From a virus: a DNA stretch of 47,244 nt. The notes below the pieces were generated by a model. It ran no database searches. It had not been told where the DNA came from and saw only the letters and a program-made list of their open reading frames with translations. Positions 13,501-46,223 of this stretch are shown piece after piece. The DNA is taken from the IMG/VR virus record IMGVR_UViG_3300048588_000078, positions 1 to 47,244 of that record; one strand, written 5' to 3'. Each line of letters opens with the position of its first letter. Within the stretch, counting starts at the first letter, position 1. The position numbers and the translations under genes are program-made.

Positions 13501-14628
13501 CGCGACATTGATGCCGAACTCACGTCGAGACATCGCCCCGCTGCCGACACGCTCCACGTACTTCGCGTACTCCGCGTCGAAGTTGGTCACGACCATCATC
13601 CGACTTTCAAGCGAACGCTGCCTTACCGCGGATTCTACGGAGTTGGCCGTCGGGACGCCCTTCAGGTTCTTGTTCAGCATAAACGGAATGTCCGCCATAC
13701 GCTGAAGAAGAACCCGCGCCTTGTTCGTGGAGGAAGTCAGCACCCGGTTAAGCGGGTTTATCTTGCCAGCGGTACGCGCAATCGCCTCGCCACCCTTGGC
13801 GATGGTGTTGTCGTCCAAATTGCCGAACAGCTCCACTTCAGCCGCGCCCGCCGTGGAGCCCTGTGGTACGCCCTTCCCTTTGTTGGCCGCGTCGAACCCT
13901 TTTTGGAGATCTCCCGCGATCTTCTCGAACTCAGAGCGGGGCACACGGCTTACCCACGTCCCGAGGGCAGCGCCCAAGAACACGCCAGCGCCCACGTTCT
14001 TCATCGACTCTTCGAGGGTGCGCAGATACTGGTTGCGGTGCAACGCGACTTCTGCAGCCGTGTCAACCGCCGCAACCGCGCCTGTGGCAGCGGCTACCCG
14101 CGTCAACCGAGAGCCCCATGCGACAGGCGCAGCCGCCGGTACAAGCATCGCTGCCATCGCAGGGGCGTCTGTAATAAAGAACGCGGCCGTCATAAGCTGT
14201 CCGGGGATGCCGCCTTTGGCCACAGTTTCGAGGTCGCGCTGCTCCTGGTGGATGCCGCGTATCGCGTACTTCAGCTCATCCGGTGAGTTCACATGCGACA
14301 CGAGCTTGTACTGATCCGGCGACAATCCTGACAGCGCCTCCGGGTCGGAGTACGGCGACCACCCTTTAACGTCCTCGAAGTCAGGCGCGTACAACGCCCG
14401 ATTCGTGCCGTCGCTGTACCCGCCGCCAAATATCGCCATCATGTCTGAGGCGCGGGCGATGACATTGTTCGTAGACGCGAACACGCTCGAAAGCCGCGCC
14501 GCCGAGGCCGCCACATCCATGAGGTCGGGCGATTCTTCGTCGGGCTCAGGCATTACCGTGCGCTGGCTATCCGCCCGCTGCATGAGGTTTGGCAGAACTC
14601 TTGATGCGTCCCACGGGATCGCCGGCAT
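10528..14628 (-). CDS. Large internal virion protein (T7 gp16-like ejection protein)
   Basis: 1366-aa protein, by far the largest here. After a ~150-residue lead, about 145-190 is hydrophobic (MTAAFFITDAPAMAAMLVPA), then a mixed region, then a very long Ala/Lys/Glu coiled coil (about 490-780, e.g. AEAALAEADKKLIKIEEAWG), then a helical C-terminal third containing another hydrophobic block. Position after the gp14/gp15-like genes and size fit the inner-core protein D that is ejected to form the trans-envelope channel. I do not see a clear lytic transglycosylase domain at its N-terminus, unlike T7 gp16. The start overlaps the upstream stop (TAATG). Long antisense ORFs here are shadows. Confidence 0.82.
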   Translation of the reverse strand: MPAIPWDASRVLPNLMQRADSQRTVMPEPDEESPDLMDVAASAARLSSVFASTNNVIARASDMMAIFGGGYSDGTNRALYAPDFEDVKGWSPYSDPEALSGLSPDQYKLVSHVNSPDELKYAIRGIHQEQRDLETVAKGGIPGQLMTAAFFITDAPAMAAMLVPAAAPVAWGSRLTRVAAATGAVAAVDTAAEVALHRNQYLRTLEESMKNVGAGVFLGAALGTWVSRVPRSEFEKIAGDLQKGFDAANKGKGVPQGSTAGAAEVELFGNLDDNTIAKGGEAIARTAGKINPLNRVLTSSTNKARVLLQRMADIPFMLNKNLKGVPTANSVESAVRQRSLESRMMVVTNFDAEYAKYVERVGSGAMSRREFGINVAGAMRRGDKSDITEVSGLARTLRKQFEADRKAFEDLEVLPEDIGTLGAESYFPRVYDHNAIQADLPGFTDRLFNWFRYNPKLPKESKEVKEARGRVGDAVGASFANVEETLAKSDAAKAAAKESVAALESIRRQRTAARSDISRAEAALAEADKKLIKIEEAWGRAEGNAAAFAEKKKAYDNAKETVASAEAEVASAKKKLSEHNAAIRKVEREVDSLQQTLNELEAQREYLPEEASGATPQQLARAQRRLTREIEKTTVKGIAHSEKLQTLRDEAIEIEQGMDALRKARKDATEASRTAEKELDEVNAVRKKDARTAEAVDRWREKKAKAEEAVAAARKGEDDVSHGVAAQRAAAKEARLAAKKAKKAADEAKADAKAVRDFDGDVLRAKTAYQDPAEIADRVQKVIENILGTTRANADLGRISNPKVTKERALDVPDHILEPYLVSDLDQVMSGYIRSVAPNIEMRKAFGNIDLKKQTEEISEVYRAKKIAAGSAMTKEEKELLAAAKARNDTDAVDKLKGAIDARNKKEVDRLTSEHSDVLNDIEGMRLRLLNQVGPKGNEAIGWVRAGRILRQFNMLRMLGTQTVSSMADLGHIVSKYGLRNTGKALAKFVTNVKFNKLTRADSRRMHVALDWVLDTRSGTLADIAEDLSGGQRGFAANLERVGQRATQQFTRLSLMATWNSTLKNLTSILEQDAILRGAANPSSLSKIQRAKIAQLGLGESDLKVIAEQFAKHGETTDGMLRASTELWDKEALGVARKLESAIIQAGEIMSISKGVGDTPLLMDKELVKTLLQFKTFGVVSVNRLMIPVAQGLAHGDMMAANGLGVMLGLGTLSQYTKDIIAGREPETDPASIVSSALLWSGALGYIPDVWDPATVFMPGPLRKLKLSRFKDSSPLDTLMGPSFGTASDFITAWSGLMKPADEESWAPEVSASDVHRTRRLLPLQNLAYIYRIVNALEGEFADSIDAEGATYDTFGDRLTESKPAK

Positions 14629-16772
14629 TACTGCAACATCCTCGGGTTCGGGTTAGAGAAAAGCTGGTCCGTCGCCTGCTCTACTATCTGCTCGTTCTCG
14701 CGTATCTGCTGCGCCTCTGCAAGTTTGTCAGCCCTGACTTTCTCCTCGGCGCGGTCGTATGCGTCTGCACCGGGGATCTGGTACCTTATCGGGTACCCTG
14801 TCCTCGGATCGCGTATGCGGTCAAGCAGGAGACCGTCCTCGTTTACAGCCACTAGATCCCACCGCAGCCCCATAGATGGGTCTGTCTCGCTCGAAGGCGA
14901 GAGAGCGACCTTGGTGCCTGCCGGGTACCCCGCGGCAAGCACCGTCTCGTCGATATCTTTCCTGAGAATGTCTGTTCGCAACTGCGGCGCCCACTTAATG
15001 ATCTCCGGAGACCCGTTTACGTCTGACACTCGGTAAATACTGGTTACGTGCTTGGCCTCCTTCTCCTGGGCCTCAGCCAATTTGCCCCCGTTGTATACGA
15101 ATTCGGAGCGAACCAACCGCTCGTAATCATCAATCATCTCGCCGGTTGGCGGCAGCGGGGAACTGAAGATAAGCCCTTCTGTGTCGAACTTACCGCCGCG
15201 CATACGCTCCGCCAGCGCGAGCCGGTTCTTGATCGGGGCCTTCTGCTTGGCGTACTCGTCGCGGAGCCGTTCTTCCTTCTCTTTCGAGGTGTTATAGACG
15301 AGGTCGTTCACCCGCTCTACGGCTGAAATGTAGTTACCGCCCGCGCTCACAATCGCGTCTATCTGCATCAAGTATGAGTCCAGCTTCGCGTCGTATCCTT
15401 CTTGCCGCATGGCTGTCGGTTTCGCCTTGTACGCCTCCGCGTAAAACGACGCAGCGAGCGCCGCCGATTCTGGGTTCGCGCTTGACGAGGTCGCCCGGAT
15501 AAACGCCTGCGCGGATTCAGGAAAAATGCCGCTCTTGCGAAGCGTGTCTACCGCCAGCGTTTTCCATTCGTTAGATCCACGGGCATACCCGGAGGCTGCC
15601 GCCTGGTCACGAAACAAGGTGTCAACCGCCTTTTTGTGCTTCGGGTTGCCGGGGTCCATGACCCCACCTTCCGACTGCACAATCTCCAACGCGGAAAGTT
15701 CTATTTCCTTGCCGACCTTCTCTTTCTCGTTCCGGGCAACGGCCGCCATCTTGTCGGCGTATCCGCTCGGCGTCAGCGCGTTGTTGCGTCGAAGGGCCTT
15801 CAGCTCGGCGCGTATCTGGCCTCCCGTCTCACCGGAAGCGATACGCTGCCCGACATTGGCCACCTCGTCCGCGAACAGCACGGCATTCTTGGAGTGCTCC
15901 GCCGAGTTTGCCTTCTGCCAGTTGGAGGCCACCTGCGCCTTCTGTGGCTCCGTCAGTTCATCGGAGTCCATCGCGGCCTGCAGCATGGCGGCGCCCTTCT
16001 CGGCGTCCTCTCGCGTTGCTGTGGCAATCGCGTCACTCGCCAAAGTGACCCGCGTATCTGATATACCCCTATCGACGGCTTCCCGGAACGCCGCGTCGTA
16101 CTTGACGACATCGGTGGCCTTGATAAGCCCCTCTTTAGCCATGACCTCAAGGCGCCGACGGTTCTCGACGACATACCCCAAGACGAGTTCGTCACCTTCC
16201 TCGCCGGGGATATGTACGCCCGCCTCGATGGCGGCTGCCGCGGCGCTGTTGCTGCCTTCAAACGCAGCCGCAAGCGTCTCGTTCTCGGTACGAACACGGA
16301 GTTGCTCATTCGCCTTGCTAACGGCAACTCGCGTCTTGCCCTTGAGCATCGCGCCGACCCAAGGCCGATACTGCTCTGGCACTCCGTCGTACATCTGCAC
16401 GGCAACAGCGTCGATAGCCGCCTGCATCCCTTCCGGGTCGGCTTCGTGCTTCGCTGCCAGCTCGTCTATCGTCGCTGCAACGTCGGTCTGCACCTTGGCG
16501 GAGTATGCCGCTTCTGCTGCCGAGTTGTAGCCCTTGCCCCAAGGCGTGAGCGCCGCCAGCCCGGATACCGGTTTCGGCTTACCCGCGAACCCGTCCTTCT
16601 GCCCTTGGGCCGCCGCCTCGTTCATGCGCAGCTCGCTGCCCACGGCAACGGCTTGGCTCTGTATGCCTTTCGCTGCGCGTGAAAGCAGCTCACCGAGTTC
16701 CGCAGAACCGGAACTCGGCATCCTCGTTTCAACCCCAACCGGGGCGACGGCCTGCCTGTACCGTTGGGCCAT
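14628..16772 (-). CDS. Internal virion protein (T7 gp15-like)
   Basis: 714-aa protein using the ATG at 16772, two bases after the upstream stop; a 17-codon longer frame starts inside the preceding gene. It is soluble, mostly helical and Ala/Glu/Lys-rich throughout (AAEAAYSAKVQTDVAATIDE, EHSKNAVLFADEVANVGQRI). Order (14-like, 15-like, 16-like) and size match the second inner-core protein of T7-like phages, which is ejected with the gp16-type protein to make the DNA-transfer conduit. No enzymatic motif seen. Confidence 0.78.
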   Translation of the reverse strand: MAQRYRQAVAPVGVETRMPSSGSAELGELLSRAAKGIQSQAVAVGSELRMNEAAAQGQKDGFAGKPKPVSGLAALTPWGKGYNSAAEAAYSAKVQTDVAATIDELAAKHEADPEGMQAAIDAVAVQMYDGVPEQYRPWVGAMLKGKTRVAVSKANEQLRVRTENETLAAAFEGSNSAAAAAIEAGVHIPGEEGDELVLGYVVENRRRLEVMAKEGLIKATDVVKYDAAFREAVDRGISDTRVTLASDAIATATREDAEKGAAMLQAAMDSDELTEPQKAQVASNWQKANSAEHSKNAVLFADEVANVGQRIASGETGGQIRAELKALRRNNALTPSGYADKMAAVARNEKEKVGKEIELSALEIVQSEGGVMDPGNPKHKKAVDTLFRDQAAASGYARGSNEWKTLAVDTLRKSGIFPESAQAFIRATSSSANPESAALAASFYAEAYKAKPTAMRQEGYDAKLDSYLMQIDAIVSAGGNYISAVERVNDLVYNTSKEKEERLRDEYAKQKAPIKNRLALAERMRGGKFDTEGLIFSSPLPPTGEMIDDYERLVRSEFVYNGGKLAEAQEKEAKHVTSIYRVSDVNGSPEIIKWAPQLRTDILRKDIDETVLAAGYPAGTKVALSPSSETDPSMGLRWDLVAVNEDGLLLDRIRDPRTGYPIRYQIPGADAYDRAEEKVRADKLAEAQQIRENEQIVEQATDQLFSNPNPRMLQ

Positions 16773-31545: not shown

Positions 31546-31707
31546 GTTTTCTGGAAAATTTTTCGCAAGTGCTTGATTTTGCTCACCGTGTGGAAGGGGG
31601 TGTGGCTTCGCCGCTATGCCGTTTTGCGCAAGTGCTTTTTAATGGGCGCACTTGACGTGAGCGATTGGGTGCGATTGGGTGCGATGCCGCGTAGGCGTAA
31701 TGCCGCT

Positions 31708-31787
31708 GACCCTCAATGCCACCGACCCTCAATGCCACCGACCCTCAATGCCACCGACCCTCAATGCCGCCGACCCTCAATGCCGCA
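31708..31787 (-). repeat. Iteron cluster A: five 16-bp tandem units
   Basis: Five head-to-tail copies of GACCCTCAATGCCRCC at 31708, 31724, 31740, 31756 and 31772, without spacers; only the last few bases vary. Read on the minus strand the unit is GGYGGCATTGAGGGTC, so the cluster has the GGCATTG core of clusters B and C in the opposite orientation. Confidence 0.9.
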
Positions 31788-31983
31788 ATGCGGTAATGCG
31801 ACTTGAAATTTGGAAAATTCCGTGTGCGGGTAGTGATAACGCGCGCGAAACCGAATTCGGGGATGGGGGTCGCGCGTACACGCTGCCACACGCGCGCCTG
31901 CAATAGGGCGAAAAGGCATTGCCGCTTCCCCGCTATGAGGCATCGCCGCTATGAGGCAATGCCGCCCTACCGCAGATCCTGCC

Positions 31984-32090
31984 CAGCATTGCGACCTGGC
32001 GGCATTGCGACCTCCCGGCATTGCGACCTGGCGGCATTGCGACCTGGCAGCATTGCGACCTGATGGCATTGCGACCTTGCGGCATTACCG
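31984..32090 (+). repeat. Iteron cluster B: six 16-bp units plus a partial
   Basis: Units of CGGCATTGCGACCTGG start at 31984, 32000, 32016, 32032, 32048 and 32064, followed by a decayed copy (CGGCATTACCG). The core GCATTGCGACCT is invariant in the six full copies; the variable bases are the first two and last two of each unit. Confidence 0.92.
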
Positions 32091-32120
32091 TTAGCTATCG
32101 GCGGGCTCGATTACCGCCGG

Positions 32121-32129
32121 TTATCCGCA
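32121..32129 (+). promoter_or_regulatory. Weak DnaA-box-like site
   Basis: TTATCCGCA differs by one base from the DnaA box TTATNCACA. It lies between iteron clusters B and C, next to the first ATGGTGC-type elements. Confidence 0.35.
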
Positions 32130-32186
32130 TTGCCGATCACCCGGCACCATCCAGCACCATGCTGGCACCATCCGGGGATGGTGCAG

Positions 32187-32313
32187 GCGGCATTGCGACC
32201 AGGTGGCATTGCGACCTGGTGGCATTGCGGCCTGGTGGCATTGCGACCATGAGGCATTGCGACCCTGCCGCATATCCTGCCCGGCATTGCGACCTGGAGG
32301 CATTGCGGCCATG
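32187..32313 (+). repeat. Iteron cluster C: about seven 16-bp units
   Basis: Five regular units (GTGGCATTGCGACCTG type) start at 32187, 32203, 32219, 32235 and 32251; one unit has decayed (32267-32282) and two more follow slightly out of phase (32282 and 32298). Same strand and core as cluster B. Confidence 0.9.
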
Positions 32314-32378
32314 CGATAGCCGGCATTGCCGCTATGCCGAGAGGCGGCCATGCGATAGCCGGCATTGCCGCTATGCCG
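32305..32378 (+). repeat. 35-bp direct repeat, two copies
   Basis: A 35-bp sequence beginning GCGGCCATGCGATAGCCGGC occurs at 32305-32339 and 32344-32378 (39-bp period) at the right end of cluster C. Each copy contains one GGCATTGC core flanked by imperfect inverted arms (CATGCGATAGCCGGCAT), so it is a higher-order duplication of an iteron. Confidence 0.9.
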
Positions 32379-32579
32379 GGATGCTGCTAGGGCTTCACAC
32401 GATCGCGCTAGATGTACGATCGAGCCGGAGGCAAGGCATAGGGATGGCGGAGTGTGGGATAACGGGATATCGGCCTGCAGGCATTGCGGGATAGGTGAGT
32501 GCGGGAGCACGACCAGGCGAGACGCGGAACTAAATTATTTTCACTTTCCGTTGTTCCAGATAGTGGGCACGCTCAGCGG

Positions 32580-34021: not shown

Positions 34022-34588
34022 ATGACCGACTATTCAGAAATTGACCAAGCCTTGACCGCCACCGGCTTGACCATGACGGCCGTATTTGTTCCACAATCGA
34101 AGTCCCGGCACGCTATCACGATCGGCCCGGACGGCAAGCGATCCGGCGGATACTGCGGCAAGGGCGAGCCGTGCATAAATTGGAAGTGCACAATCAGCGT
34201 GAACGGCCTAGAAGCCTGGACAGGCGATTACTCGCAAGGGTCCGGGCATTTGCCGGGAATGCTTGGCCGCGGCCAAAATCGCAGAACAATTTATGAGGAG
34301 CAATATCGCGCTGAAGCATGTGAAACCGGCAAGGCTATCCAGCCTGGAACGGTTCGGGGCCAAGCCCTTGTGCCGCCAGAACTGCGGGACGTGCTCTATA
34401 GCTTGCTGATGGACTCCGAAGCCTATTCGATGGACTTCGAGGAGTGGGCAGATACCTTCGGATATGACCGGGACAGCCGCAAAGCGGAAGCCACGTACAA
34501 CGAATGCGCCGCAATCGGCAGGGCATTGGCCGCTAGGCTGTCACCGGCTGAAATTGACCGGCTACGGGAGGTATTTCAGGAATATTAG
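34022..34588 (+). CDS. Conserved phage early protein of unknown function
   Basis: 188-aa protein from ATG 34022 with AAGGAAAC upstream. The pattern VFVPQSKSRHA, then LNWKxT-like NWKCTISVNGLEAWTGDYSQ, and LYSLLMDSEAYSMDFEEWAD / FGYDRDSRKAEATY looks like a family I have seen only as hypothetical in phages and prophages of Proteobacteria. The C-terminal half is helical and acidic. No catalytic motif; function unknown. Confidence 0.72.
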   Translation: MTDYSEIDQALTATGLTMTAVFVPQSKSRHAITIGPDGKRSGGYCGKGEPCINWKCTISVNGLEAWTGDYSQGSGHLPGMLGRGQNRRTIYEEQYRAEACETGKAIQPGTVRGQALVPPELRDVLYSLLMDSEAYSMDFEEWADTFGYDRDSRKAEATYNECAAIGRALAARLSPAEIDRLREVFQEY

Positions 34589-34644
34589 CGGTTAGCGGGT
34601 AGCCGGTTAGGATTCTAGCCGGCTACACGATACCCGACTAAATT
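34588..34644 (+). repeat. 57-bp intergenic repeat, copy 1
   Basis: Begins GCGGTTAGCGGGTAGCCGG. Identical over 57 bp to copy 2 at 35047. It folds: an inner stem (GTAGCCGG / CCGGCTAC) and an outer pair (TTAGCGGGTA / TACCCGACTAA, one bulge). No T tract follows. It starts at the stop codon of one gene and ends ~30 nt before the next. Confidence 0.9.
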
Positions 34645-34674: not shown

Positions 34675-35046
34675 ATGAGCACCGTTGACAAATATCAGGA
34701 CATTCTCGACAGCCGGGACGTTGACAGCCGGATTGAAGAACTCGAAGCGGAACGGGACGCGGCCGTAGAAGCCGGGACCGATTTTGTTGACTGCCAGGAG
34801 CTGGCCGCCCTGGTAGCTTTCCGGAATGAGGCAGAAGGGTACTGCAGCGATTGGCGGTACGGCGAGACCCTGATCCGGGACAGTTACTTTAAGGATTACG
34901 CTCAGGAGCTGGCCGAGGAAGTGGGCGCGATTGAGCGGGACGTGAAATGGCCTTATACCTGCATCGACTGGGACAAGGCCGCGCGGGAGTTGCAGATGGA
35001 CTATTCATCGGCTGAACTTGACGGCGTGAATTACTGGTTCCGCTAG
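34675..35046 (+). CDS. ArdA-like early protein (possible antirestriction)
   Basis: 123-aa acidic protein, AGGAG upstream of the ATG. A helical N-terminus (SRIEELEAERDAAVEAGTDF) precedes a C-terminal part (DSYFKDYAQELAEEVGAI, WPYTCIDWDKAARELQMDY) that resembles the end of ArdA-type antirestriction proteins ('F..YA..LAEE.G', 'IDW..AA.EL..DY'). The strongly acidic character fits a DNA mimic. Similarity is from memory of the motif only; most homologues I know are annotated hypothetical. Confidence 0.5.
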   Translation: MSTVDKYQDILDSRDVDSRIEELEAERDAAVEAGTDFVDCQELAALVAFRNEAEGYCSDWRYGETLIRDSYFKDYAQELAEEVGAIERDVKWPYTCIDWDKAARELQMDYSSAELDGVNYWFR

Positions 35047-35103
35047 GCGGTTAGCGGGTAGCCGGTTAGGATTCTAGCCGGCTACACGATACCCGACTAA
35101 ATT
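35047..35103 (+). repeat. 57-bp intergenic repeat, copy 2
   Basis: Exact copy of 34588-34644, placed at the end of the ArdA-like gene and before the next gene's Shine-Dalgarno (CAGGAGAATC). The GGCACACTTGAC motif that follows copy 1 is missing here. Confidence 0.9.
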
Positions 35104-35122: not shown

Positions 35123-35773
35123 ATGCTTGCTTGGCATTTCCTAAAAGCAGATCGCAAACTGGCATACTCGCCGCACACGCCAGTATTTACCGGCCAGATG
35201 CTTACCGTTGACCCTGACCGGCTGGAACTCTGCGCGTATGGGCTGCACGCCTCAGAACGCGCACTTGACGCGCTGAAGTACGCGCCGGGTCCAATCGTTT
35301 GCCGTGTGCAGCTTGGTGGCCGTATTTTAACCGGCGAGGATAAATTGTGCGCATCAGAACGCACGGTCATCGCGATGGCTGACGCGACTGGAACGCTACG
35401 CGCATTCGCGCGGGCATGTGCGCTTGACGTGATCGACAACTGGAACGCGCCTGCCGTGGTTCGGGAATACCTGGAAACGGGAAACGAAGATTTGCGGATA
35501 GTAGCGTGGTCGGCGGCGTCGGCGGCGGAGTCGGCGGCGAGGTCGGTGGCGTCGGAGTCGGCGGCGCGGTCGGCGGCGGGGGCGGCGGCGGCGGCGGAGG
35601 CGTCGGAGTCGGCGGCGTGGTCGGCGGCGAGGTCGGTGGCGTGGTTGGCGGCGGAGTCGGCGGCGAGGTCGGTGGCGGAGTCGGCGGAGTCGGCGGCGAG
35701 GTCGGTGGCGGAGTCGAAACAGAATAAGCAGTTTGAGGCAATGCTTTTCGACCTTTTACAGCTACAGGGGTAA
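35123..35773 (+). CDS. DUF7666-like protein with Ala-rich repeat tail
   Basis: 216-aa protein. Residues 1-110 match a common phage/bacterial family (MLAWHFLKADRKLAYSPHTP, LELCAYGLHASERALDALKY, PGPIVCRVQLGG), which I believe is DUF7666; function unknown. From about 128 to 200 the protein is a degenerate Ala/Ser/Glu/Arg repeat (SAARSVAESAESAARSVAES) encoded by GTCGGCGGCG-type DNA. Alanine-rich repeat tails are usual in the family. A short normal C-terminus (EAMLFDLLQLQG) closes it, so the frame is intact. ATG with AGGAG. Confidence 0.72.
   Translation: MLAWHFLKADRKLAYSPHTPVFTGQMLTVDPDRLELCAYGLHASERALDALKYAPGPIVCRVQLGGRILTGEDKLCASERTVIAMADATGTLRAFARACALDVIDNWNAPAVVREYLETGNEDLRIVAWSAASAAESAARSVASESAARSAAGAAAAAEASESAAWSAARSVAWLAAESAARSVAESAESAARSVAESKQNKQFEAMLFDLLQLQG
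35505..35715 (+). repeat. Low-complexity GTCGGCGGCG tract inside the DUF7666-like gene
   Basis: About 210 bp of imperfect GTCGGCGGCG(G)AG units, in steps of three. All six frames stay open and give simple repeats (Gly/Val, Pro/Thr, Ala/Ser). The strand is very G-rich, with a run GGGGGCGGCGGCGG at 35578-35600. Length is probably unstable by slippage. Confidence 0.85.
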
Positions 35774-36941: not shown

Positions 36942-37063
36942 AGCCCTTACCAAAGCCCCTGTCGTGCGTCGTGTGCGGTGACGATTGGCTGCGCGGCGAG
37001 CCGGAGCAGCATATGCCGGAGTGTGCGCTTGTGGCCTTTCGCAAAGAGGAGGAAGGGGAATGA
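36938..37063 (+). CDS. 41-aa zinc-finger micro-protein
   Basis: ATGA-coupled on both sides. C10-x2-C13 (SCVVCGDDW) and H25-x3-C29 (QHMPEC) make a CCHC zinc-binding set. The remainder is short and charged. No function known. Confidence 0.6.
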   Translation: MKPLPKPLSCVVCGDDWLRGEPEQHMPECALVAFRKEEEGE

Positions 37064-37293
37064 ACATCACCCTCACCATAGCGGAACTCGTCGACCTGGC
37101 TGAGTTAGCCGGGCTTGTCATCGACTCCGTGTCCGACACCGACTCGGAGCTGGTCATTACAGAGTGCCCGCCGGAAGGCGTGCTTGACGATGACGACCCG
37201 TCTCCAAAGCACTACAGGTACATCGCGTACTACGCCGAATACCCGGACGAAGGCGTGCTGCCGCTGGGCGAGCCACTGGAGCAGAAGCCGTGA
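37060..37293 (+). CDS. Small acidic early protein
   Basis: 77-aa protein from ATG 37060 (GAGGAAGGGGA upstream). Very acidic: MNITLTIAELVDLAELAGLV, CPPEGVLDDDDPSPKHYRYI. Negative charge would suit a DNA mimic, though nothing more supports that. Its last 18 bp (CTGGAGCAGAAGCCGTGA) are repeated exactly at the end of the next gene. Confidence 0.6.
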   Translation: MNITLTIAELVDLAELAGLVIDSVSDTDSELVITECPPEGVLDDDDPSPKHYRYIAYYAEYPDEGVLPLGEPLEQKP

Positions 37294-37409
37294 GCAAACC
37301 AAAGGAACCCAAGGCGTTTACGTTGAAAGTGGCAATAGCGGCTGCGAAGAAGAACCGCGCCCAACGACCGCGCTGGATGAAGCCAGTAACGCTGGAGCAG
37401 AAGCCGTGA
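37290..37409 (+). CDS. 39-aa basic micro-protein
   Basis: GTG start overlaps the preceding TGA (GTGA). MSKPKEPKAFTLKVAIAAAK then KNRAQRPRWMKPVTLEQKP: highly basic, potentially nucleic-acid binding. It ends in the same LEQKP and the same 18 nt as the preceding gene, so the 3' end and the next GTG start arose by a local duplication. Confidence 0.55.
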   Translation: MSKPKEPKAFTLKVAIAAAKKNRAQRPRWMKPVTLEQKP

Positions 37410-37603
37410 CTACAGCACAGTGGTTCCTGTCTCTAGACACTTATTGCCCAAAATGCGAGTCAGAATTTGACCTGCTTGATGACTCGGATTTTTGGCACAA
37501 CAGCGGGTTGCAGGCCTGTGAAAACCATACGGATAAGAGCCGTGATGTAGAGGTGGTGTGCCCGCGCTGTGAGCACGAGTTCAAAGTTGATCTGGAGTAT
37601 TGA
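37406..37603 (+). CDS. Small zinc-ribbon protein
   Basis: 65-aa protein, GTG start inside the preceding stop (GTGA). CxxC at 14-17 (YCPKCES) and at 52-55 (VCPRCEHEFKV) bracket an acidic loop with His (DSDFWHNSG, CENHTDKS): a zinc ribbon of the kind found in many phage small proteins. Function unknown. Confidence 0.65.
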   Translation: MTTAQWFLSLDTYCPKCESEFDLLDDSDFWHNSGLQACENHTDKSRDVEVVCPRCEHEFKVDLEY

Positions 37604-38224: not shown

Positions 38225-38941
38225 TTGACACCTCAACTCACAATCAGCTTCGGCGGCGAGCACCAAGCCCGCATTACCGAAACACGGCAGATGACATGGC
38301 CCCGGTACTGCGCGCTGTTCCTGCCACAAGCGCCAGAAGCGATAGACAAGGCCAGCAAGGGCTGGTCGATACCCGCCTCGTTCAATCCTAGCTACCGGGA
38401 CAGCACGAACCTCGTCGCTCGGTACGCCCTGACCTTCGACTACGACAACATCAAGCGGTCCGATGTATCCGTCATCGAGAAAGCATTCGCTGATCTTGAA
38501 TACCTGATATACACCACCGCCTCGCACACGCCGGCCGCGCCCCGGCTTCGGGTTCTGCTGCCGACCGACAGGCCGATGCGCCCGGATGAGTTCTGCGCGG
38601 TATCCCGCAAAGTGGCAGCGCGGGCGGGCATCGAACTCGCCAGCCGGGAGAGCCACGTCCCCGCGCAGATGATGTACCTCCCGACTCGCAAGCCTGGTGG
38701 GCCGTTCAAGGCGGCCCGCCACCAAGGCCAGTGGGTCAGCGTTGACGCCGTGTTGGCAGAGTACGCCAACTGGGAAGATCGGAACGAGTGGCCGCGCAGG
38801 GCTGATGGGGACTCAACGCACACAGCGACGACGGGTACTCCGCCAGCGGAGAAGCCAGGGATCGTCGGCGACTTCTGCCGTGCCTTTGACATTTACGCGG
38901 CGATCGAGCGATTCGAGTTGCCTTACGAGAGGGTTCGGTAG
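38225..38941 (+). CDS. AEP-type primase domain protein (N-terminal part of a split primase-helicase)
   Basis: 238-aa protein, TTG start with GGGGCGG upstream. Archaeo-eukaryotic primase hallmarks: FDYDN with D72 and D74 (catalytic DxD), TTASHT with S100/H101 (sxH), then PRLRVLLPTDRPMRPDEFCA and VPAQMMYLPTRKPGG, typical of phage prim-pols. It ends GIVGDFCRAFDIYAAIERFE LPYERVR, which in fused phage proteins is the linker just before the helicase half. The natural continuation (SRWTFTGG...) opens the helicase gene 557 nt downstream, after an HNH gene. Stop TAG overlaps the HNH GTG by one base. Confidence 0.8.
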   Translation: MTPQLTISFGGEHQARITETRQMTWPRYCALFLPQAPEAIDKASKGWSIPASFNPSYRDSTNLVARYALTFDYDNIKRSDVSVIEKAFADLEYLIYTTASHTPAAPRLRVLLPTDRPMRPDEFCAVSRKVAARAGIELASRESHVPAQMMYLPTRKPGGPFKAARHQGQWVSVDAVLAEYANWEDRNEWPRRADGDSTHTATTGTPPAEKPGIVGDFCRAFDIYAAIERFELPYERVR

Positions 38942-39501
38942 TGCCTTACGCAAACAAGGCGGACCATAACAAGCGCGCGCGCGAGCGGTACGCCAGCCGG
39001 GTTCCCGCCGAGCGGGCGAAACGCGCAGCTTGGCGGGCAGCGAATAAAGACGAACGCAACGCATACTCTCGTGCGTGGTACGCTGCGAACAAAGAGCGGA
39101 TGCAGGACTACGCTAAGACCTGGTACGCCGCCAATCTGGCGAAGCTGAAGGGGCAGCGCCGCGTCAGGTACCTCGCTAACAGCGAAGCCATACTGGAAAA
39201 ATGTCGGCGCGAGTACGCTCGTAGGGCGGACGCAGGAGCCCGCTACGGGCGCGGGTACCCGCAACCCACGAGACCGCCTAGCGCTCAATGCGAGTGCTGC
39301 GGCCGAACGCAGAAGCGCAGATTGGCTCTCGACCATTGCCATGAAACACTTGTGTTCCGTGGCTGGCTTTGCAGTCTGTGCAACCTGGGGATCGGGAAGC
39401 TCGGAGACTCTGTCCAAGGAGTTGAGCAGGCTCTGGCGTATCTGAAACGAGCGGCAGCCTCAAATGTAGGTGACACGACATTGAAAGTAGGTAGCAAGTG
39501 A
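38941..39501 (+). CDS. Endonuclease VII-type HNH homing endonuclease
   Basis: 186-aa protein. Residues 1-95 are basic with repeated 'YAANKER' units (WYAANKERMQDYAKTWYAAN), a probable DNA-binding arm. The C-terminal half is the Recombination endonuclease VII domain: C117/C120 (CECCG), DHCH at 131-134, GWLCSLCN with C144/C147 and N148, then LAYLKRA. GTG start and TGA stop overlap both flanking genes by 1-4 nt, so it fits flush between the primase and helicase halves. Such free-standing nucleases spread by cutting uninvaded alleles. Confidence 0.88.
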   Translation: MPYANKADHNKRARERYASRVPAERAKRAAWRAANKDERNAYSRAWYAANKERMQDYAKTWYAANLAKLKGQRRVRYLANSEAILEKCRREYARRADAGARYGRGYPQPTRPPSAQCECCGRTQKRRLALDHCHETLVFRGWLCSLCNLGIGKLGDSVQGVEQALAYLKRAAASNVGDTTLKVGSK

Positions 39502-40937
39502 GCCGCGAGTCGAGTCGGTGGACTTTCACCGGAGGGTCGCGACCGGAAGGCGTAATTGTCTATGATGGCGGGCAGAAAATTCACGTCCACCATGACACTG
39601 ATGTAGCTCGCGGCCAGCACAATGCCTTCGACTTGGTCCGCCTACACAAGTACGGCAATCTCGACGCGGGCGTCGCCCCAGGCACACCGATCACCGAGAT
39701 GCCGAGCTTCAAGGCGATGGCTGAGTTCGCAGCCAGCCTCCCCGAAGTCCGCGCAGTACAGGCGGTAGAGGAGTTCGAGGAACTGCCGCCGCGCACGCCC
39801 GACGAGATCGCGATGGGGGCGAAGCGGGCTGCCAAGAACCCGGCCGCGCAGAAAGCGGCGGAGCCGCCCAAGGACCCGACCCGGTTCAAGGTTATCGCGG
39901 CCACGGAGTTCGCCAAAGGGAAACCGCTGGAATGGATTGTCAAGGGGGTGCTACCGAGAGCCGGGCTCGCCGTTATCTACGGGGAGTCCGGCTCGGGCAA
40001 GTCTTTCTGGGTGTTGGACCTTGTGGCGTGCATCCAACAGGGGGCGCCGTGGCGAGGGCACAAGACCCGCAAGGGGCGGGGGATCATGGTGGTGGCTGAG
40101 GGCGTTGGCGGGTTCCGCCAGCGGCTTAACGCTTACGCCAAGCAGAACGAGGTCTCGCTGTCTGTCATGCCGGGGGTGATCCCTGACGCCCCTAACCTGC
40201 TGGACCTCGAGGACACTGACGCGCTGATTAATCAGGTACTGGCATGGGGGCAGACAGACCTGGTCGTGGTGGACACCCTGAGCGCCACCACGCCAGGCGC
40301 GAACGAGAACGCTGGCGAGGACATGGGTAAAGTCCTGAGCCACTGCCAGCGGCTCCACAAGGCCACTGAGAAGGTGTGGGGTGAGGGTAAGGGGGCGATG
40401 GTGGTGCTAATCCACCACAGCGGCAAGGACGCCTCTAGGGGGGCTCGTGGCTGGTCAGGGCTGAAGGCCGCCGCCGACGTGGAGATCGAGGTCTCCCGCA
40501 ACGGGGAGTTCCGGCGGGCCTGCTTGACGAAGCTGAAGGACGGCGAGGACGGCGCGGAGTGGAACTTCAAGCTGGTCTCGGTGCCTTTGGGCTTCGACGA
40601 GGACGATGAACTGATATCGTCATGCGTCATAGAGCACACCGACGCCGCGCCCATGCGCGGGAAGAAACCGCCAACCGGGTTGAAGCTCACCGTGTTCATG
40701 GCCGCCCAGGAGCTGATGGCTCCGGGGGATGTCAAGCCTGTCTTTGAGCTGCTGGATAAAGCGATCCTGCAGATGCCCCACGAGGAGGGCAAGCGGGATA
40801 TTCGTAGACAACATGCCAACCGTGCGTTACAACGACTGATAACAGAGGGCTACTTGTTTTTGCCCACTCCCGACACCGTGTCGCTCATCAGCGCAACGGC
40901 TGTCTCCCCTGCGACGTTTGAAGGACAAGGGACATGA
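39498..40937 (+). CDS. RepA/DnaB-like replicative helicase (C-terminal part of a split primase-helicase)
   Basis: 479-aa protein starting at GTG overlapping the HNH stop. Residues 7-57 (RWTFTGGSRPEGVIVYDGG, HHDTDVARGQHNAFDLVRLH) are the linker domain that in related phages sits inside one primase-helicase chain. The ATPase follows: Walker A GESGSGKS (162-169), VVAEG with E201, Walker B LVVVDT with D259, sensor-like VVLIHHSGKDASRGARGWSG, as in hexameric RepA-like (AAA_25) helicases. C-terminal winged-helix-like part (about 410-470). No separate start context exists, consistent with a gene cut in two. Confidence 0.85.
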   Translation: MSRESSRWTFTGGSRPEGVIVYDGGQKIHVHHDTDVARGQHNAFDLVRLHKYGNLDAGVAPGTPITEMPSFKAMAEFAASLPEVRAVQAVEEFEELPPRTPDEIAMGAKRAAKNPAAQKAAEPPKDPTRFKVIAATEFAKGKPLEWIVKGVLPRAGLAVIYGESGSGKSFWVLDLVACIQQGAPWRGHKTRKGRGIMVVAEGVGGFRQRLNAYAKQNEVSLSVMPGVIPDAPNLLDLEDTDALINQVLAWGQTDLVVVDTLSATTPGANENAGEDMGKVLSHCQRLHKATEKVWGEGKGAMVVLIHHSGKDASRGARGWSGLKAAADVEIEVSRNGEFRRACLTKLKDGEDGAEWNFKLVSVPLGFDEDDELISSCVIEHTDAAPMRGKKPPTGLKLTVFMAAQELMAPGDVKPVFELLDKAILQMPHEEGKRDIRRQHANRALQRLITEGYLFLPTPDTVSLISATAVSPATFEGQGT

Positions 40938-42436: not shown

Positions 42437-42559
42437 ATGACACTTCTATTGATGTTCTTCGGCGGCGTGTACGTTGCGCTCGGAGCCGGCAGCACCACCG
42501 CCTTCGGGGTATGGATGATCGGCATGAGTATCCTGATAGAACTGGGGAGCAAACGATGA
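42437..42559 (+). CDS. 40-aa membrane micro-protein
   Basis: MTLLLMFFGGVYVALGAGST then TAFGVWMIGMSILIELGSKR: essentially all hydrophobic with a basic end, one long or two short membrane helices. It is ATGA-coupled to the A1-like gene downstream, so it is likely translated with it. Confidence 0.55.
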   Translation: MTLLLMFFGGVYVALGAGSTTAFGVWMIGMSILIELGSKR

Positions 42560-44133
42560 GCTATCCTTGCCCGAAATGCGGGAAAGCCATGATGCGTAAC
42601 GGCACGGCGCCTTCGGGGCGGACGCGATGGGGGTGCATCCGTACTTCAGAGGGCCATCGCACTTTCTGCTACACGACAACGACACCTGGCAAGGCATACG
42701 TAATGACGCAATCCGGCAACAAGAAGCAAGGGCAGCGGGCGCCGAAGCATCGCCGCAAGCTGAAGGGAGCGCAGCGTTTCATCATTACCGCCGCGCAGAA
42801 CGCGACGCCAGTACATAAAGGCTTCATGGCAGCGCTCACCACGGCCTGCCAGAAGATGAACGCCGAGCTGTTGATCGTACCGATACGCTACAAGAACCCA
42901 ACGAGCCGGTGGACGGAGAGCCAGACCAACGCCGAGGAGTGGGCGCCTGAGACAACGCCGTATCTGTTCAACGTGCGCAAGAAGCTCGGCAAGAACCTCG
43001 TGCTGATGGGGGATGTCAAGACGCAGCCGACTGCCTCATCGCCGCTGACCGGCTTCGACGCACTGACGCATGGCGAGTCAGGGATACTTGCGCACACCAA
43101 GCTGCAGTTGCGTACCGTCCCGACGCCGCAGAACCGGATGGCGAAGATCCTCACCACGACCGGCGCGTGTACCGTGCCCAACTACACGGACAGCAAGGCC
43201 GGGGCGCTTGGTGCGTTTCACCATACGCTCGGCGCGTGTGTGGCTGAGATCGACGGCGGCCGGTTTCATCTGCGGCAGATCAACGCCAACACAGAGACCG
43301 GCGCGTTTACAGACCTCGACAAGAACTACTCTGCCGACGGCGTGAGTAACGCGGAGCGGGCGAAGGCGCTGATTATGGGCGACACGCACGTTGACTTTAT
43401 AGACCCTGCCGTGGAGCAAGCGACGTTCGGGGCTGGCGGGATCGCGGCGGTGCTCGATCCGGCGTTGCTGGTATGGCACGACTTGCTGGATAACTATGCC
43501 GTCAACCCGCACCATATCGGTAATCCGTTTAACGCCATCGCCAAGCAGCGTACCGGTCGGGATGACGCCTACCAAGAAGTCTCGCGGGCGCTGCAGTTCC
43601 TGCAGGAGCATACGGTTGCTGGGCGGAACTCGATTGTCGTACCGAGTAACCACAACGACTTCCTGACCCGGTGGATCATGGGTACCGACTGGCGGAGTGC
43701 GCCGATCAACGCCGAGTTCTACCTGGAGACCGCCCTTGCGATGGCGAGAGGCACCAAGCTGGATGGCAGCGGCGTGTATTACCCTGATCCGTTCGCGTAT
43801 TGGGGCGCGAAGCTCGGCGCGGCTGAGATCAAGTTCCTGCGCCGGGATGAGAGCTTCACGGTCAGCGGCATCGAGCTTGGGATGCACGGCGACAAGGGCC
43901 CGAACGGGGCTCGCGGCAGTATCCGTAACTTGCGGCGCATCGGCATCCGCTCGGTTGTCGGGCACACCCATAGCCCCGGCATCGACGAGGGGTGTTACCA
44001 GGTTGGTACTTCGACCCGGCTACGGTTGGAGTACACGAGCGGCCCGTCTGGCTGGCTGAATACACATTGCGTGGTGTATGCTTCCGGCAAGCGGGCTTTA
44101 CTTTCAGTTGTTGATGGTAAATGGAGAATATAG
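42556..44133 (+). CDS. T5 A1-like metallophosphoesterase/DNase with zinc ribbon
   Basis: 525-aa protein from ATG 42556. Residues 1-45 are a transposase-like zinc ribbon (CPKCGKAMMRNGTAPSGRTR then CIRTSEGHRTFC). The rest resembles the pre-early A1 protein of phage T5, needed for host DNA degradation: FIITAAQNATPVHKGFMAAL, NLVLMGDVKTQPTASSPLTG, VPNYTDSKAGALGAFHHTLG, and calcineurin-type metal motifs MGDTHVDFIDP, VWHDLLDNY, VPSNHNDF, GMHGDKGPNG and VGHTHSP. The metal-binding D/H pattern is complete. It probably degrades or nicks host DNA. It ends DGKWRI*, and the codons DGKWR are duplicated 0.9 kb downstream. Confidence 0.72.
   Translation: MSYPCPKCGKAMMRNGTAPSGRTRWGCIRTSEGHRTFCYTTTTPGKAYVMTQSGNKKQGQRAPKHRRKLKGAQRFIITAAQNATPVHKGFMAALTTACQKMNAELLIVPIRYKNPTSRWTESQTNAEEWAPETTPYLFNVRKKLGKNLVLMGDVKTQPTASSPLTGFDALTHGESGILAHTKLQLRTVPTPQNRMAKILTTTGACTVPNYTDSKAGALGAFHHTLGACVAEIDGGRFHLRQINANTETGAFTDLDKNYSADGVSNAERAKALIMGDTHVDFIDPAVEQATFGAGGIAAVLDPALLVWHDLLDNYAVNPHHIGNPFNAIAKQRTGRDDAYQEVSRALQFLQEHTVAGRNSIVVPSNHNDFLTRWIMGTDWRSAPINAEFYLETALAMARGTKLDGSGVYYPDPFAYWGAKLGAAEIKFLRRDESFTVSGIELGMHGDKGPNGARGSIRNLRRIGIRSVVGHTHSPGIDEGCYQVGTSTRLRLEYTSGPSGWLNTHCVVYASGKRALLSVVDGKWRI
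44108..44127 (+). repeat. 20-bp direct repeat, left copy
   Basis: TTGTTGATGGTAAATGGAGA, the last coding bases of the A1-like gene (V-D-G-K-W-R). The same 20 bp recur at 45017-45036 and flank the PAPS-reductase-like gene. Confidence 0.95.
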
Positions 44134-44157
44134 CCTTTCGAGGGCTGGAGGAAAGAA

Positions 44158-44997
44158 ATGCGGAAGTTGAGGAAGAAAGAAGTGCTCGCGCGGAGGCTAT
44201 CGGAAGAACTAGAGGACGCCTCGCCCGAGGAGATTGTTCGCACCGCGCAGAAAATGTTTTCGCCTTCCGCGGTATTTGTCGGGTATTCCGGCGGGTTCGA
44301 TAGCCTCGTAACGACTCATTGGGCGATGAATAACGTGGAGGGGTGCAAGGTATTTCACGCAAACACGGGGATAGGCATAGAGCGGACAAGGGAGTTCGTC
44401 CGGGGTACTTGCAGAGAAAACGGCTGGCCGCTCACAGAGATACGGGCGAAGGAGGATTGCGGCCAAGATTACGATGCCCTTGTTCTTGAAAGAGGCTTTC
44501 CTGGCCCAGGGCACCACTACAAGATGTTCCAGAGACTTAAAGAGCGGCCGATAATGAAGCTCTTGAGGGACAACAAGCTCCGCCGCACGGACAACGTGAT
44601 GCTGCTTACAGGAATTCGGAAGGATGAAAGTGCCCGCAGAGGGGGGTATAAGTATACTGTTCTTGATTTTACAGGCAATTTGCTATGGGTAAATCCTTTT
44701 TATTACCGAGGGCGCGAATGGTTTGAGGAATACCTAGCCCTCAATAAGATCGAGAGGAACCCCGTGTCCGCCACACTCGGCATGAGCGGGGAATGTCTCT
44801 GTGGGGCCTACGCACATAAAGGGGAGTTGTCTTTGATAAAGATAGTCTGCCCGGAGACGCACGCGCGTATAGTGGCTCTTGAGGAGAAAGTCAGGCAGAC
44901 ACACGGGTGGGGGTGGGAGGATAGGCCCCCCAAGAATCGAAAAACAGCAGAAAAGGCCGAGAAGTTCATGCCTTTTTGCGTAGGCTGTGAAAAGTGA
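44158..44997 (+). CDS. PAPS reductase/DndC-like PP-loop protein
   Basis: 279-aa protein, GGAGGAAAG before the ATG. The PP-loop YSGGFDS is at 43-49 in AVFVGYSGGFDSLVTTHWAM; then VFHANTGIGIERTREFVRGT and LLTGIRKDESARRGGYKYTV, as in phosphoadenosine-phosphosulfate reductase-family ATP pyrophosphatases. Four C-terminal Cys (C213, C215 in GECLCGAY; C274, C277 in FCVGC) could hold an iron-sulfur cluster, as in APS reductases and DndC. Reductive sulfur transfer or a DNA/tRNA modification is possible. Base composition looks more AT-rich than its neighbours, and 20-bp repeats flank the gene. Confidence 0.7.
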   Translation: MRKLRKKEVLARRLSEELEDASPEEIVRTAQKMFSPSAVFVGYSGGFDSLVTTHWAMNNVEGCKVFHANTGIGIERTREFVRGTCRENGWPLTEIRAKEDCGQDYDALVLERGFPGPGHHYKMFQRLKERPIMKLLRDNKLRRTDNVMLLTGIRKDESARRGGYKYTVLDFTGNLLWVNPFYYRGREWFEEYLALNKIERNPVSATLGMSGECLCGAYAHKGELSLIKIVCPETHARIVALEEKVRQTHGWGWEDRPPKNRKTAEKAEKFMPFCVGCEK

Positions 44998-45016
44998 TCC
45001 ACTGAGATTATTTTTT

Positions 45017-45036
45017 TTGTTGATGGTAAATGGAGA
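45017..45036 (+). repeat. 20-bp direct repeat, right copy
   Basis: Same 20 bp as at 44108. Followed by GTGTGATGG, it would read DGKWRV* with the TGA overlapping the ATG of the next gene, the expected ancestral junction. It now supplies that gene's Shine-Dalgarno (GGAGA). Confidence 0.95.
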
Positions 45037-45041
45037 GTGTG

Positions 45042-45503
45042 ATGGCTGAAGATCAATATCTGTCTGCGGGTAAGTGGCATGTCGTCGCCGATAGGCCGCG
45101 GGCAGACGCAGGGTCCAACCCGAAAACGCTGATGGGCCGGCTGAAGGTGCCGATGCTCTCGGTTATTCCGCCTGCCGCGCTTGCGTACTTCGGTGTCGCT
45201 ATGCGGTATGGCGCTTACGAGGCGCCCCGCAAGGACGGCAGCCACGGTTACGGCCCGTATAACTGGCGCGATCAGCCTGTCGAGGCCAGCACGTATGTTG
45301 ATGCCACGATCCGGCACATCATGCAGTTCTGGGACGGTGAGGACATTGATCCGGGTAGCAAGGTGCCGCACCTCGCCGCGGCTATTGCGTCGCTCGGTAT
45401 CCTGATCGACGCTATCGAGAACGAGACGTGCAAGGACGACCGGCCTGCTATTAAAAAGGCAGCGGTCTCGAAAGTGATTGACAGGTTTACTCGCAAGATT
45501 TAA
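45042..45503 (+). CDS. dATP/dGTP diphosphohydrolase-like protein
   Basis: 153-aa protein from ATG 45042 (GGAGA upstream); a longer start at 45030 overlaps that Shine-Dalgarno. Pattern LKVPMLSVIPPAALAYFGVA, YGPYNWRDQPVEASTYVDAT, IRHIMQFWDGEDIDPGSKVP and HLAAAIASLGILIDAIENE matches the phage dATP/dGTP diphosphohydrolase N-terminal domain family (MazG-like helical fold), with H/E/D residues for metal. It would hydrolyse a purine dNTP to the monophosphate and shape the nucleotide pool. Confidence 0.72.
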   Translation: MAEDQYLSAGKWHVVADRPRADAGSNPKTLMGRLKVPMLSVIPPAALAYFGVAMRYGAYEAPRKDGSHGYGPYNWRDQPVEASTYVDATIRHIMQFWDGEDIDPGSKVPHLAAAIASLGILIDAIENETCKDDRPAIKKAAVSKVIDRFTRKI

Positions 45504-45511
45504 TATCAGCC

Positions 45512-45547
45512 CACGTTAATTTTCACACAGGAGAAAGACGAATGACT
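45512..45547 (+). promoter_or_regulatory. Duplicated leader with Shine-Dalgarno, copy 1
   Basis: CACGTTAATTTTCACACAGG followed by AGAAAGACGAATGACT. The same leader, with one T less, precedes the gene at 46218 (46189-46223). Both carry a strong CACAGGAG ribosome-binding site. Confidence 0.8.
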
Positions 45548-45713: not shown

Positions 45714-45962
45714 ATGGACAATCAACACCAGAAAATTACCGGCTACCGCGATCTGTCTCAGCAGGAGATAGATGCCATGAACAGCATCAAGGCGCTGGCT
45801 ATACAGTGCGGGGAATTGGTTGATGGCCTGCGGAAACAGCCGCCCCCCGACACCGATCCCGCAAACAAGCCTGATGGCCGTTGGGTCAGCATCGGAGCGA
45901 CGCATCTGCAAGAAGGCTTTATGGCCCTCGTGCGTAGCGTTGCCAAGCCCAAGACGTTCTGA
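45714..45962 (+). CDS. acb2: Acb2/Tad1-type cyclic-nucleotide sponge (anti-CBASS)
   Basis: 82-aa protein from ATG 45714, two bases after the preceding stop. MDNQHQKITGYRDLSQQEID, MNSIKALAIQCGELVDGLRK (long first helix), then DGRWVSIGATHLQEGFMALV and RSVAKPKTF: the 'GYR-LS--EI', 'RW--I--T-LQ-GFMAL-R-V--P--F' pattern of Acb2/Tad1 hairpin proteins. These assemble and bind cyclic di- and trinucleotide or gcADPR-type signals, shutting off CBASS or Thoeris. Helical-hairpin size is right. Which ligands this one binds cannot be read from the sequence. Confidence 0.82.
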   Translation: MDNQHQKITGYRDLSQQEIDAMNSIKALAIQCGELVDGLRKQPPPDTDPANKPDGRWVSIGATHLQEGFMALVRSVAKPKTF

Positions 45963-46188: not shown

Positions 46189-46223
46189 CACGTTAATTTC
46201 ACACAGGAGAAAGACGAATGACT
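46189..46223 (+). promoter_or_regulatory. Duplicated leader with Shine-Dalgarno, copy 2
   Basis: CACGTTAATTTCACACAGGA then GAAAGACGAATGACT, matching 45512-45547 apart from one T. Its AATTTCACACAGGA also equals 14 bases of the E. coli lacZ leader, most likely by chance. Confidence 0.8.

Follow-up and report, generated by a model that had tools for sequence, protein, structure and literature searches.

A PAPS-reductase-like phage gene bracketed by a duplicated gene junction points to insertion without a transposase

In IMGVR_UViG_3300048588_000078, a complete IMG/VR virus record of 47,244 bp whose genes are of podovirus type (phrog_332, head-tail adaptor; phrog_342, internal virion protein), a PAPS-reductase-like gene lies between the two copies of an exact 20-bp direct repeat, TTGTTGATGGTAAATGGAGA. 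The whole record was analyzed and is called the window here. The gene was probably inserted at the junction between an A1-like gene and a hydrolase gene; the bifunctional junction module would have been duplicated by recombination not involving a transposase, and both copies would have been kept by selection. We assign this reading a probability of about 75%. The features concerned are as follows.

42556–44133, + strand: A1-like gene (T5 A1 "DNA transfer protein" family; phrog_1745, E 2e-146), 525 aa, ending in VDGKWRI-stop
44108–44127, + strand: left copy of the 20-bp repeat, last complete codons of the A1-like gene
44128–45016, + strand: unique part of the insert, 889 bp, GC 0.524
44147–44157, + strand: region with the insert gene's own Shine-Dalgarno sequence (SD; GGAGG, 6-nt spacing to ATG 44158)
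44158–44997, + strand: PAPS-reductase-like gene (PP-loop, CysH-fold), 279 aa (PF01507, 2.2e-10; phrog_424, 2.4e-30; AlphaFold model with pLDDT 90)
45010–45018, + strand: A(T)8 tract just 5' of the right copy, possibly a weak terminator tail, without a strong hairpin
45017–45036, + strand: right copy of the 20-bp repeat, putatively retained A1 3' end with the SD of the hydrolase gene (GGAG, 45032–45035)
45042–45503, + strand: dATP/dGTP diphosphohydrolase-like gene (PF18909), the putative ancestral neighbour of A1 as found in Paso, RHph_X3_9 and SI01

The two copies lie 909 bp apart, start to start, in agreement with the original prediction of a unit of about 909 bp made up of the gene plus one repeat. 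Even with three mismatches allowed, the 20-bp sequence occurs only twice in the 47 kb. It was absent from 100 dinucleotide shuffles, and repeats in 40 Markov-simulated genomes reached 17 bp at most. Selection for an SD would favour GGAG in both places, but the identity of 20 out of 20 positions reaches well past the SD. Usual assembly k-mers are longer than 20 bp, and the repeat lies below that size. Chance or convergent similarity, or an assembly artefact, is thus extremely improbable. No site differs between the copies (0/20), which sets a 95% upper limit on divergence of about 14%; since 20 sites are too few for more, a recent age is supported yet undated.

In frame, the left copy closes A1 (...SVVDGKWRI-stop, TAG 44131–44133). 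The right copy reads VDGKWRV-stop, and the final A of its TGA (45040–45042) is shared with the ATG of the hydrolase gene (45042–45044; junction AAATGGAGAGTGTGATGG). Both readings had been proposed for the two copies. An alternative hydrolase start at 45030 is possible, but only the start at 45042 has an SD, with 6-nt spacing. Judged from the sequence, the right copy would serve as the SD of the hydrolase gene and the left copy would not be used as one. Among A1 relatives, the C-terminal motif [IV][DN]G[KE]WR is conserved and followed by one or a few residues, and in 18 of 31 distinct relatives the SD (mostly GGAG) of the overlapping or abutting next gene lies inside the last A1 codons. Since these codons carry the SD of the next gene in so many relatives, the repeat is best read as bifunctional, its left copy completing A1 and its right copy starting the hydrolase.

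The PAPS-reductase-like gene is the only ORF between the copies, and it differs in composition from its surroundings. The GC content of the insert is 0.524, whereas A1 has 0.612, the hydrolase gene 0.591 and the contig overall 0.590. For the gene itself, GC (0.532) and GC3 (0.627) lie below the means (0.595 and 0.705), and only one other gene of the contig has a codon usage more atypical than its own (z = −5.5). Other early genes of the contig are likewise compositionally atypical. The insert had been expected to be more AT-rich, and its composition is indeed mismatched, not matched, to that of the contig. The reading of the PAPS-like gene as an insertion is supported.

Relatives show the same slot empty. 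Paso, a Rhizobium phage, has a single junction (AAGTGGAGAGCATAATGG, TAATG overlap) at which A1 and the hydrolase gene overlap directly. In Rhizobium phage RHph_X3_9 the overlap is ATGA (AAGTGGAGGGCCAAATGA), and in Stappia phage SI01 a gap of 12 nt separates A1 and the hydrolase gene. As predicted for relatives without the gene, each has one junction and not two. The geometry of the Paso junction equals that of the right copy in the window (GGAG at −10 from the stop end, spacing 6, start overlapping stop), and the numbers are identical in the loci L030 and L032. The claim that the right copy preserves the arrangement before insertion is borne out by this comparison. The relatives are distant: the closest A1 shares 63% amino acid identity, that of Paso only about 32%, and the collections searched held no near-identical relative with an empty site. 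A DNA search of GenBank phages with the insert and junction returned only a weak hydrolase match, in Paso. A hydrolase-protein scan of IMG/VR and a PAPS scan of genome contigs gave no match.

Elsewhere the slot is filled. A gene of 5'-nucleotidase length occupies it in RHEph02 (annotated as deoxyribonucleoside 5' monophosphate phosphatase), N37 and TM33; I38 has such a gene together with a small ORF, Palo has an unannotated gene of equal length, and different small genes fill the slot in six IMG/VR relatives. In none of these occupied slots was the A1 end duplicated (best alignment score of 6–8, compared with 20 in the window). The slot is a hotspot. Since it is empty or variously filled, without an A1-end repeat, A1 and hydrolase are long-standing partners with a slot for variable genes between them, and in this lineage the PAPS-like gene has come to fill it recently.

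The extra gene could also have come from a donor phage with A1 followed by PAPS, a crossover bringing in the donor A1 end with PAPS and leaving a stub of the resident A1 end. The right copy does read in frame as IIFFVDGKWRV-stop, like the hydrophobic-VDGKWR end of the family, and a longer A1 stub is conceivable. Yet neither the 31 A1-bearing records nor the roughly 85 PAPS loci include an A1-PAPS neighbour pair; PF01507 was found in one of the 31 records, outside the A1/hydrolase slot. Moreover, synonymous sites are identical across the repeat, and the match upstream of it is a T-run. A donor of this kind is quite unlikely.

Transposition with a 20-bp target-site duplication would likewise leave an exact direct repeat around the gene. 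However, the insert encodes neither a transposase nor, when examined for homing, a site-specific endonuclease, and it has no terminal inverted repeats. Comparable repeats differ in length (20 bp here, 18 bp at 37276 and 26 bp in the phage contig L080), and flanking repeats are missing at most PAPS relatives. This route is very improbable. Since lengths vary and both transposase and terminal inverted repeats are lacking, recombination that duplicated the junction without a transposase is the most likely origin. The original prediction had argued for recombination at a duplicated gene end, not by a transposase. The second part is supported by the lack of a transposase and of terminal inverted repeats in the insert and by the varying repeat lengths; the end, however, was probably duplicated by the insertion and not beforehand, and the route is our inference.

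The preferred reading, insertion with duplication of the junction, would proceed as follows. First, the ancestral A1/hydrolase junction would have been one sequence with two jobs, encoding the A1 codons VDGKWR and carrying the hydrolase SD (TGGAGAG), with the hydrolase ATG overlapping the A1 stop. Second, a one-gene cassette, consisting of the PP-loop/PAPS-reductase-like gene and its own SD, would have entered this junction in a podovirus, and the junction would have been duplicated during entry by illegitimate recombination. A staggered break or a template switch re-entering about 20 nt upstream are candidate routes. Third, selection would have removed outcomes that broke A1 or deprived the hydrolase gene of its SD. 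Because the module serves both the A1 end and the hydrolase SD, both neighbours would survive only with about 20 bp of it on each side of the insert. The DNA-level mechanism, the expression of all three genes and the selection on both copies are what we infer from this arrangement. The right copy could also have arrived with the insert.

The name PAPS reductase should be taken as a fold-level label, and "PAPS-reductase-like" is the proper name. In a Foldseek search with the predicted structure, the top matches were CysH/APS reductase (E 2.5e-9; TM 0.56 by query length), and the PF01507 score exceeded its cut-off. In contrast, the protein scored far below the curated NCBIfam cut-off for CysH (36.7 bits vs. 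154; PRK02090), for APS reductase and for DndC of phosphorothioation (20.2 bits vs. 290). The C-terminal catalytic motif of CysH, ECGLH, was found in none of 74 phage homologues tested. These homologues share SGECxC (73/74), CxxC (74/74) and the ATP-pyrophosphatase loop SGGxDS (68/74). The conserved motifs suggest an ATP-dependent enzyme, possibly with an Fe-S cluster, that may act in sulfur or nucleic-acid modification. Other viral contigs, of varied GC, carry the closest PAPS relatives, at 50–60% identity.

Junction repeats recur in the window. Outside two low-complexity regions (31588–32494 and 35123–35773, tandem repeats within ORFs), every dispersed repeat of at least 18 bp is located at gene junctions, all in the same arm, with one or more entire genes between its copies. 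In the following second example, each copy consists of C-terminal codons, an SD and an overlapping GTG start.

37276–37293, + strand: left copy, CTGGAGCAGAAGCCGTGA, the LEQKP-stop end of gene 37060–37293 with SD GGAG and an overlapping GTG start
37290–37409, + strand: 39-aa ORF enclosed by the 18-bp repeat
37392–37409, + strand: right copy, 18 bp, SD and GTG (37406) start of gene 37406–37603

Two further pairs are of other make. A 57-bp exact repeat with a strong stem-loop (34588–34644 and 35047–35103), whose 30-bp core had no other occurrence in IMG/VR, flanks one 123-aa gene (34675–35046). A near-identical SD-plus-start leader of 36/35 bp with one indel (45512–45547 and 46189–46223) precedes two different genes and encloses three small genes. 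One of these (45714–45962) encodes an Acb2/Tad1 hairpin-domain protein (PF24729, 7.7e-20), likely an anti-CBASS nucleotide sponge. The primase/helicase gene (38225–40937) is interrupted by an HNH gene of endonuclease VII type (38941–39501) and occupies two ORFs, the pieces being joined by overlapping stop and start codons in a gene-in-pieces arrangement; it is a single 687-aa ORF in the relative L022. A 9-bp repeat, TGCCTTACG (38919 and 38942), lies at the left end of the HNH gene. An Rfam search of the split primase gave no match; thus, no intron known to Rfam is present.

In 1.08 Mb of fetched loci, both copies lay at junctions in 7 of 39 such repeats, compared with 1.1 expected (p of about 1e-4), and in 4 of 34 when the window was left out (p = 0.016); both values assume independent repeats and depend on simple gene calling. 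Among the seven is the repeat of L080, an unrelated phage contig in which a 26-bp repeat surrounds a PAPS-like gene and contains the end of the upstream gene (SARKWG-stop), an SD and GTGA starts. The related contig L143 has a homologous upstream gene and a single module copy, with no PAPS gene at that place, and the 27-bp L080 module is a free-standing leader in it. Since it stands apart there from the upstream gene, the L080 case may reflect recombination between start-associated modules and not a fresh duplication. Such a flanking repeat occurs at only 2 of about 83 PAPS loci. At 82 PAPS loci, the flanking repeat had a median of 9 bp, compared with 8 bp (maximum 12) after shuffling; only L080 (26 bp) and L085 (15 bp, palindrome-like intergenic sequence) exceeded 13 bp. 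A mobile PAPS element with characteristic ends was considered and rejected, as flanking repeats at the 82 loci were about as long as in shuffled sequence. In L031, an 18-bp repeat (10646–10663 and 11612–11629, 966 bp apart) forms the ends of two successive genes, both AKISTW plus one residue. In L024, an A1-bearing phage, several genes on the opposite strand (14390–16134) are preceded by repeats of the start-associated sequence GGAACGAGACAATGA.

These repeats bear on a further explanation, exchange at pre-existing junction modules, by which a cassette with an SD/C-terminal module at one end would have recombined with the resident module through short homology, in the manner proposed for gene shuffling by start-associated or early-promoter stem-loop repeats. 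The L080/L143 comparison, with its free-standing leader, leans this way, and so do the SD leaders (36 bp, 45512/46189) and stem-loops (57 bp, 34588/35047) enclosing genes in the contig and the several SD-start repeats in L024. Against it, the genome has just two copies of the 20-mer, the six A1-specific codons are identical, and the core 18-mer is at no A1 or PAPS gene in IMG/VR, where its three matches are unrelated AT-rich contigs. Exchange between such modules is a genuine alternative, if an unlikely one here.

Insertion with junction duplication shares traits with known systems. In Thermus phage Tsatsa, a PAPS-reductase homologue is inserted between IN93 genes 2 and 3 (PMC11437467); as with this single-gene (moron or accessory) insertion, one extra PAPS-like gene stands between genes that are adjacent in relatives (Paso, RHph_X3_9 and SI01), and its composition is atypical. 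Morons carry their own promoter and terminator, whereas a + strand scan of 44108–45036, limited to sigma-70-like promoters, revealed neither promoter nor terminator-like site, only the T-run. In the window, the insertion site is a junction where stop and start overlap, and the insert has one copy of a duplicated gene end on each side. Cluster K mycobacteriophages have Start-Associated Sequences, SD-containing repeats just 5' of gene starts that in some cases overlap the stop codon of the upstream gene and number 11–19 copies genome-wide (PMC3203893). The right copy of the repeat in the window is similarly a short SD-bearing sequence before a gene start, whereas the left copy would not be used as an SD; the repeat has two copies only and also encodes the conserved A1 C-terminus. 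In the accounts of Arbiol et al. (2010) given in PMC4177764 and PMC4503421, boundary repeats of T4-type mobile regulatory cassettes or promoter early stem-loops are tied to small-gene shuffling. As these sources describe them, they share with the window short repeats at gene boundaries; the 20-bp repeat differs in being coding sequence plus SD, without promoter or stem-loop, and the 57-bp repeat is closer to this kind.

The event is of an ordinary kind, and unusually legible. There is little documentation of how accessory genes get into phage genomes that have hardly any intergenic space, as the joints tend to decay. Here, the joint can still be read, named phages show the empty slot, and a definable double function, predicted to be C-terminus and ribosome binding, falls to the duplicated bases. 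This provides a searchable signature, i.e., an exact repeat of 18–30 bp with stop, SD and start that brackets a whole gene, and a simple prediction of reversibility, namely cassette loss by recombination between the repeats. More speculatively, and with the odds somewhat against it, duplicated stop/SD/start modules may be a recurrent transposase-free entry route for single-gene cassettes in packed phage genomes, and the same repeats could also permit these cassettes to be lost.
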